Origin: Neoarius graeffei
Taxonomy: Eukaryota; Chordata; Actinopteri; Siluriformes; Ariidae
Assembly: GCF_027579695.1 (NCBI RefSeq)
Contig: NC_083587.1
Location: 51,391,021 to 51,455,020 of the forward strand
DNA length: 64,000 bases
Reading direction: 5' to 3'
Below, in pieces: positions 39,884-58,099 of the stretch. The translations under genes and the position numbers were made by a program. A model generated the notes under the pieces. That model was not told the DNA's origin. It did no database searches and saw nothing but the letters and a program-made list of their open reading frames with translations. Within the stretch, counting starts at the first letter, position 1. The number at the start of each line of letters is the position of its first letter.

Positions 39884-42800
39884 TCACAAGTACTGATTAA
39901 AGACTGCTTCATATTGTTCCTGTTTCCCTGATGTCACTTTTGGCTCTCCGTTCTGTTTGATGAACTCCTGTGAATAAAAATATGCATTAATGTAAGAACT
40001 CGTGATATCTAATAGAACGCACAGGTTACTGGGATGAAAAAGTGAAAAACCTCGAGGTCCTCCAATGAGCAACTGGACTCTTCTACCTTCTGTCCAATTC
40101 CATGGCTGAAGCTCATGTAGCGTTCCTACATCACACACACACCACATCCAGGATATGTACTGATCTAGGATCAGTTGTTAGCGTTTATATTACAACAAAT
40201 TTAAACCACTTCATAGCCAGAACCTGGTTTCATGGTTATCAGGAAAGGTTGATATTCAGTTTCAAATGCCTAACGGTAATAAACAAATAAATAAACACCA
40301 TTTATTGCCGTAACTAAGATTACCCGCAGCATATTTTGCATAACTCCTTCCTCAATCATCTTGGCTGCGTTTCTGAGACCTCGAGCGAATGCATCCATGG
40401 CGCCAATGTGAGCGATGAACAAATCCTCCAGATCAGTGGATTCCCTCCGGACCTTGGCATCGAAATTTAAACCTCCAGGCTGCAGGCCACCCTGCTCAAT
40501 AACAGCCTGAGGGATTTAATGAAGCATAAATAGGAGCTCGCAGTTCTGAAAATGAAAACCTATTCATATTTTAAACAGACGTCTTACGTCACCTTCATCA
40601 CCAAGGTCGTATTTCTGATGTCCATGGGGAACTGATCCGTGTCCCAGCCCAAGTCAGGAGAGCCTGTGTTGGCGTCCACAGAGCCCAGCATGCCAAACCT
40701 ACACCACACACAAACACACAGAGTGGCGTAAACCAGCACACTGCATCAAAACGTTTCACAAATGGCACTGAATGATCCAGAGCATCATACACAGAGGCCA
40801 TGATGATGTCATGTTCATAAGAATGTCCAGCCAGGGTCGTATGATTCGGCTCGATATTCAGTTTGAAATCTTTGTCCAGTCCAAAATGCTTAAGAAACCC
40901 AATAACACTCATCGCATCTGTTAAAATGGCAAAAAGAAATCAGGACACTTAGCCAGAAGCCAAGTGGTCACATGACAAAAACATAAACCATACTCATCCA
41001 TGCGGTATTCACTTAAATAGTATTTGAGTCATATATTTAATTAACGTTAAAAAGTCTATTTACTGCTCTAAAACACTTACCGTAGTCATACTGGTGCTTG
41101 CACGGTTCTTTCGGCTTGGGCTCAATGAGAAACTGGCATTTTAAGCCGATCTTCTCTTTATAAGCTACAATTAAAACTGATGTTAGTTCTTCTTTGGTGA
41201 TAAAACATGCAACAGAGATTTAAAGTAACCTGATGCTACTTCATACCCACGGCCATTTTGAAAAATCTGGCCATGTGCTTGAGTTCAGCCGCCACGTCTG
41301 TGTTGAGTGCCGAGAGGAAGCCTTCACGACCTCCCCAGAACACTGCGGAGAAAAGACGTCACGGTTAACACAGAGATCTACAATCACAATGACTCGCAGC
41401 ATTATTACATGATGAGTCTATTATATGGGTCGCAGACTATCAGGCACCAAGTCGTCCCAGCTCATCATTCAGCGATTTGTCTGAAAGTATATTACTCTGT
41501 AACTACACCGAAACTTATTGAAAAGTACGTAGTTATGAAATTAAGGACTAACACTGGAGCCTCTGATGGGTCTTGGGATTTTTAATCGGGTTATGAGGAT
41601 TATAAAAGGAAAGTTGGACTCACCAAAGTTCTCAGCCTGCAGTTTCTTGGCGATCTCTAGACCTTTCTTCACCTGAGCTCCAGCAAAGGCAAACACATGG
41701 CAGTCTGGATTACTTGCAGCTCCGTTCATATATCTACATGTATACAAGGCACGTGCTTCAATCATGTTCCCTGAAAACTCAGTAAGCAGCACAAAACACT
41801 GTAGTGTTGCATGGCCATTTAATTGGTTATACAATATATTATGTTTTATTCTATCTACATTACAGGATATGAGCAATCGTGTGCTCTGATTGGCTACCCT
41901 ACTACCAGGATATCGGCTCATATACCGCAAGTAGAGAAAAACAAAATGGCGGAGCGTGTTGCTGAACCAACCGAGAACAAAAAAAAAACTACTCAAAAAA
42001 AAAAGGCAACAAAATATGGAATACTAGATAGAACTTGACGCCAACGGCGTCGATGGGGATGCCTCCGCCCGGTAGACTACACGCCTTATTAAGTTGTGAT
42101 TTGGGGATGGACATTTGATCTTACAGTAATCTTGACCTGGTGAAATTACTTGCATCAGCCTTGGAGATATTGTGCTCACAAGGTTTTCGGCCAGACATTT
42201 GACCTCACAGTGATCTTGACCTTAGACCTTCTGAAATCTAAATTTAATCAGTTCATGTTTGTCCCAAAGCGCACAAATGGTGAAAGTTTGGTGAAATTCC
42301 TTTCATTAGCCTTTGAAATATCGCGTTCACAAGGTTTCGGGACGGACGCACGCACGGATGGACAACCCGAAAACATAATGCCTCCTGCACCTTATGGTGG
42401 CGGAGGCATAAAAAGTATTTGATGGTAAGAACATATTTTTTTATTCTTCAAGAATTATTATTACAGCATTTTCACAAATTGCTCCTGTCATTTCGCCAGT
42501 TTGTTTACATTCTAAGCGGAAATTATTTTGTTGGATGTTTTGTTTATCAAATCTGCAAAAAATAAAAATGCTCCATTTCTCAAAATCCAGTGAATGTTGA
42601 TGGAATAAAACAGTTATTCCACTCAATCTCGTCGTACAAGGCTTATAGCCGACTTGGTGCTACGCGCTTCATCGGCTATCAGCTCATGTACGACTCGATT
42701 TCGTGGAATAACTGTTAAATGTACTAGAGTTCTGCTAAATTCTCAAATGAACGATGTCGATTAATTTTCTATAACAGCAACTCTGAAATATGCTCTTATT

Positions 42801-58099: not shown

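Follow-up and report, generated by a model that had tools for sequence, protein, structure and literature searches.

The window is a 64,000-nucleotide stretch of the Neoarius graeffei genome, which comprises 2.34 Gb in 38 contigs. It lies within a contig of 70 Mb and carries, on the minus strand, a gene (xylA) for xylose isomerase, a sugar-converting enzyme known best in bacteria and plants. The gene has 14 exons, which run from 58057 to 39884 and are spliced into a coding sequence of 1323 bases, corresponding to 440 codons and a stop codon. The exons range from 26 to 183 bases and the introns from 82 to 8465 bases. All 13 introns have GT-AG borders, the phases are consistent at each junction, and no stop codon interrupts the frame; the donors of exons 4 and 8 read GGT/GTACAG and GTGG/GTATGA, respectively. 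The intact 14-exon gene of the original prediction, with in-phase junctions and no stop, was thus recovered. The exon set within the extent then given (39884..58099) also stood, but the coding start is at 58057, and the 42 extra bases lie upstream of the first ATG of the frame.

The coding part of exon 1 (58030..58057) begins with the start ATG at 58057, and exon 2 (57700..57776) encodes a divergent N-terminal segment, with YVPDAGVRD instead of YEGxxSxNP. Exon 3 (49162..49234) was recognized by a TIGR02630 match in the genome search and by splicing, while exons 4 (46689..46804), 7 (41624..41733), and 13 (40051..40125) were placed by their splicing into the intact frame. Exon 5, of only 26 bases (45494..45519), carries the catalytic His105, and exon 6 (45258..45395) carries Asp108 and Trp143. 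The word FWGGREG is found in exon 8 (41247..41342), Glu236 and Lys238 in exon 9 (41081..41164), Glu272 and His275 in exon 10 (40791..40917), Asp300, Asp311, and Asp313 in exon 11 (40593..40698), and Asp343 in exon 12 (40324..40506). Exon 14 with the stop codon (39884..39967) is followed by an AATAAA that starts 25 bases downstream of the stop.

The flanking animal gene squalene epoxidase (sqle) was found as nine matching pieces at 15123..28272 on the minus strand, the same strand as xylA. These pieces were 57–77% identical to a provisional, partial human SQLE sequence, which shows that the host is an animal. Two IBR domains upstream of xylA (L089) represent an IBR-domain gene on the side opposite sqle, and sqle and this gene are the nearest animal genes recognized beside xylA. 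A TIGR02630 search of the 2.34 Gb genome yielded nine matches, all nine within the xylA of the window, and no other XylA locus. The GC contents of xylA at the three codon positions were 0.535, 0.365, and 0.56, with a CpG observed/expected ratio of 0.48. The same measures gave 0.556, 0.374, 0.58, and 0.44 for sqle, whose matching pieces contain a few bases of intron. The base composition of xylA is host-like and close to that of the sqle pieces.

Several repeat-like features of the window were noted by eye. Tc1-type transposase-like frames lie at 51330-56099 (in intron 2 of xylA) and, between genes, at 15624-16706, 34023-34549, and 35992-36504; the frame at 15624-16706 is open over 361 codons on the plus strand. 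A SINE-like repeat of ~350 bases occurs in many copies on both strands of the window, including the xylA introns (for example, at 43640-43980, 58435-58755, 59740-60110, and 63313-63690). Intron 6 contains a long inverted repeat at 42800-43430, apparently a MITE-like or palindromic element, and reverse-transcriptase-like open frames were seen downstream of xylA at 37355-38337 on the minus strand.

Family assignment and active site

Family models place the spliced product among the class II xylose isomerases. It scored 646.7 bits (E = 1.8e-194) against the NCBIfam equivalog for this class, TIGR02630 (cut-off 533.25), with an alignment spanning profile positions 1-435 of 435, and it was also matched by the PRK05474 xylose isomerase model. 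The Pfam family PF01261 (Xylose isomerase-like TIM barrel) gave 34.6 bits against a cut-off of 31.1, and the profile search against PF01261 and the XylA family that had been suggested as a check was thus positive for both. In the PDB, the eight best matches all bear the name xylose isomerase, and they aligned with the window protein over 417–437 residues. Membership of class I (short) xylose isomerases was rejected, as TIGR02631 scored 110.2 bits, far below its cut-off of 447.

The ten XylA residues named beforehand (H105, D108, E236, K238, E272, H275, D300, D311, D313, and D343) were all present at their stated positions. We take these ten to be the catalytic and metal-binding residues of XylA, comprising the catalytic His and Asp, a Lys, and seven metal ligands, and to be offset by exactly four from the E. 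coli XylA numbering. The window protein also keeps Trp143, Thr145, Asn147, Val190, and Trp192. Changes at the equivalents of Trp143 and Val190 are presumably those that shift the T. thermosulfurigenes (Thermoanaerobacterium) enzyme from xylose to glucose. Since both residues are kept, a xylose-preferring enzyme is expected.

Departures from the bacterial consensus

Bacterial XylA loci were collected with six exact peptide patterns taken from the window protein, in a scan of prokaryotes in which each species was represented by a single genome, and the best 80 of 457 confirmed loci were used for comparison. Having been chosen through window-protein peptides, these loci do not represent bacteria evenly. 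Motif and column counts were made on all 80 proteins, with columns considered near-invariant at 97% or more. Among these 80 (best of 457), 141 columns were near-invariant, of which the window protein keeps 121 and differs at 20.

The most visible difference is at the N-terminus, where YEGxxSxNP was found in 79 of the 80 bacterial proteins (best of 457), and the window protein has the segment but reads YVPDAGVRD. As a mark of class II, this motif is our own yardstick from the sampled bacteria rather than a published criterion, and it lies outside the catalytic residues named above. Despite its replacement, the window protein exceeded the TIGR02630 equivalog cut-off. Beside Trp143, the protein has Cys instead of Ala at position 146, and Val at position 144, where all 80 bacterial proteins (best of 457) have Gly. 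Solved xylose isomerases also differ at position 144, with Asn in 1a0d but Ser in 5yn3, indicating that solved enzymes tolerate change there. It is possible that the 20 changed columns reflect an altered activity or a shifted substrate range.

The word DANTG was considered as a plant-like mark and was given no weight, being also present in 1a0c and in one Fibrobacterota sequence (L009). DANRG was found in 77 of the 80 bacterial proteins (best of 457), and the two Fibrobacterota (L009 and L010) carry DANTG or DANSG.

Bacterial relatives and phylogeny

Among the best 80 of 457 loci, the closest bacterial XylA proteins were those of the two Fibrobacterota (L009, match at 1501-2802; L010, match at 1501-2814), with 59% identity, and the rest were about 50–56% identical. 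A scan of viral contigs with the six peptide patterns gave no match. For the trees, 23 bacterial loci were hand-picked from the 80 to cover their groups, and four sequences from the eight top PDB matches were added. In the resulting 28-sequence tree, the window gene was on an end branch of 0.75 outside the sampled bacterial groups. It branched off first within a set of 10 (100/100), whose other nine members grouped together at 86/84. Placing the window gene with the Thermotoga/Geobacillus/Thermoanaerobacterium set was rejected (p-AU 0.014), as was placing it with a set of three Planctomycetota and L023 (p-AU 0.0175), while a grouping with Fibrobacterota was not rejected (p-AU 0.156). The original prediction had named, as a refuting outcome, a tree placing the gene within recent bacteria with no other fish or invertebrate orthologues. 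In the tree of sampled bacteria, the branch of the window gene is long and falls within none of their groups.

The 28-sequence tree joined the window gene to no single bacterial group. When provisional Arabidopsis and E. coli sequences were added, the window gene, Fibrobacterota, and Arabidopsis came together at 82/87. Judged against the best 80 of 457 loci, a recent bacterial transfer of xylA is unlikely. Inheritance through the animal line, as opposed to recent bacterial uptake, appears most likely on the basis of a pair of short peptides, a tree built from bacteria, and a single provisional plant sequence.

Xylose isomerase in other animals

The available text of an octopus ink study (PMC10142993) gives three peptides that were attributed to a xylose isomerase-like protein of oyster. 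The peptide FSVCFWHTFR was alike in 7 of 10 residues to its window-protein counterpart, LGAENFVFWGGR was alike in 11 of 12 residues to LQAENFVFWGGR, and FCCLYIFNK had no counterpart in the window protein. The words FSVC and ENFVFWGGR, both in the window protein, occurred in none of the 80 bacterial proteins (best of 457). At the position of the FSVC cysteine, E. coli XylA presumably also has Cys. The words shared with molluscs, from two peptides, would fit a common animal XylA lineage.

The name has appeared elsewhere, as far as the available parts of these papers go. An expression-difference table for Arctic charr, in print since 2015-2016, includes 'Xylose isomerase' (PMC5007756), a fish transcript cluster so named by its authors, whose orthology to the window gene we infer. 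A scallop xylose isomerase protein of 51.1 kDa has been described (PMC12357810), and xylose isomerase has been named in apple snail (PMC8533556), scallop hepatopancreas (PMC5159873), crab (PMC9312322), and isopod (PMC6798089). In the available part of the isopod paper, the two peptides printed for xylose isomerase are absent from the window protein, and a peptide printed for glucose-6-phosphate isomerase begins with LGAENFVF, like the xylose isomerase word (PMC6798089). As support for an animal xylose isomerase, this isopod report was given little weight. Its two peptides printed as xylose isomerase resemble, as we take it, phosphoglucomutase.

The accessible portions of two further papers (PMC5133447 and PMC7700177) held nothing on animal xylose isomerase, and a literature search on vertebrate xylose isomerase yielded no functional study among the matches listed. 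Animal xylose isomerases are thus already visible in the annotations of other animals and have apparently been little studied. The earlier view of the fish gene as a metabolic novelty is weakened, given the name in the seen parts of papers on Arctic charr, octopus/oyster, scallop, snail, isopod, and crab.

Predicted function and alternative explanations

The window shows xylA as a host gene, with its exon structure, a frame open throughout, all active-site residues in place, a composition like that of the host, and a setting between animal genes. Judged from its sequence, this single-copy locus quite probably encodes a xylose isomerase that is expressed, works, and descends through the animal line. 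The protein would assemble, as is usual for the enzyme, into a metal-dependent tetramer built from TIM barrels, in which His105 would open the sugar ring and Glu236, Glu272, His275, Asp300, Asp311, Asp313, and Asp343 would hold two divalent metals. A hydride would then be moved between C1 and C2, converting D-xylose to D-xylulose (EC 5.3.1.5) and, poorly, glucose to fructose. Xylulokinase (XYLB), a general vertebrate enzyme, could then phosphorylate the D-xylulose and so pass it on to the pentose phosphate pathway, and food or gut microbes would be the likely sugar source.

Bacterial contamination or an assembly artefact behind xylA has a negligible probability. Nothing was found in its favour, and the gene structure refutes it: xylA has introns and is flanked by animal genes within a contig of 70 Mb, and none of the best 80 of 457 bacterial loci is a near match. 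The single locus, the animal neighbours, and the host-like composition therefore exclude contamination, and the original prediction of a host gene is borne out by the introns, the sqle and IBR-domain gene flanks, and the composition. We also consider it unlikely that an ancestor of this lineage alone took up the gene from a bacterium and gained the introns later. The two Fibrobacterota at 59% are the nearest rows, and joining them with the window gene was not rejected (p-AU 0.156); however, no bacterium exceeded 59% among the best 80 of 457, the gene has 13 introns and a host-like composition, and the words common to the mollusc peptides and the window protein were absent from all 80 sampled bacteria (best of 457). 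The 'xylose isomerase' of Arctic charr, by name only and with orthology to the window gene assumed, points the same way in the available text (PMC5007756).

Other explanations accept a host gene and differ on what it does. The protein might have kept the fold and active site for another substrate or job, such as another aldose, metal binding, or moonlighting, which seems rather unlikely. The 20 changed columns among 141 near-invariant ones, the lost N-terminal motif, and Gly144Val beside the specificity tryptophan would suit this, as would a scallop XI-like protein that topped a CdS-precipitation list, for which the authors, in the part of the paper available, suspected contamination from other bands (PMC12357810). 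Against it, all ten catalytic and metal residues are kept along with Trp143, Val190, and Trp192, and position 144 is variable in solved enzymes (Asn in 1a0d, Ser in 5yn3). It is very unlikely that xylA is decaying or unexpressed with a frame still open by chance: transposase-like frames seen by eye inside the 8.5 kb intron 2 could hint at decay, but 440 codons lack a stop or frameshift, 13 of 13 introns are GT-AG, and the catalytic residues are complete.

Our preferred reading remains a working xylose isomerase inherited through the animal line. More tentatively, and with slightly more doubt than confidence, we propose that xylose isomerase is ancestral in animals, was kept under selection in some fishes, and was lost in mammals. 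If so, such vertebrates would be able to bring D-xylose from the diet or from microbes into central metabolism directly and without a cofactor, and perhaps to convert glucose to fructose, by a route left out of textbook vertebrate biochemistry. To our knowledge, accounts of how vertebrates handle xylose usually include no isomerase. A XylA that works in fish would change the assessment of xylose-rich plant-based feeds in aquaculture and would clearly exemplify an ancient metabolic gene that some vertebrates have retained and others have lost. The xylA of the window is well supported and will surprise many biochemists, yet its name is already annotated in other animals.

Comparison with known xylose isomerases

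The class I (short) xylose isomerases of TIGR02631 share the named activity and match the window protein only weakly (110.2 bits). With the invertebrate 'xylose isomerase-like' proteins (octopus/oyster, scallop, snail, isopod, and crab), the comparison is by the peptides or names in the available parts of the papers; two of the three octopus peptides match the window protein and the third differs. Arabidopsis XYLA, in a provisional sequence, was 54% identical to the window protein over 435 residues. The plant enzyme presumably has an N-terminal leader, unlike the window protein. The window protein resembles the solved class II enzymes (1a0c, 1a0d, 1a0e, 4xkm, and 5yn3) in its full-length match and complete active site, and it is 51.4% identical to 1a0c across 434 aligned residues. 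Compared to these class II members, the window gene is split by 13 introns and resides in an animal chromosome, and its protein has a replaced N-terminal YEGxxSxNP and carries Val144 and Cys146 beside Trp143.
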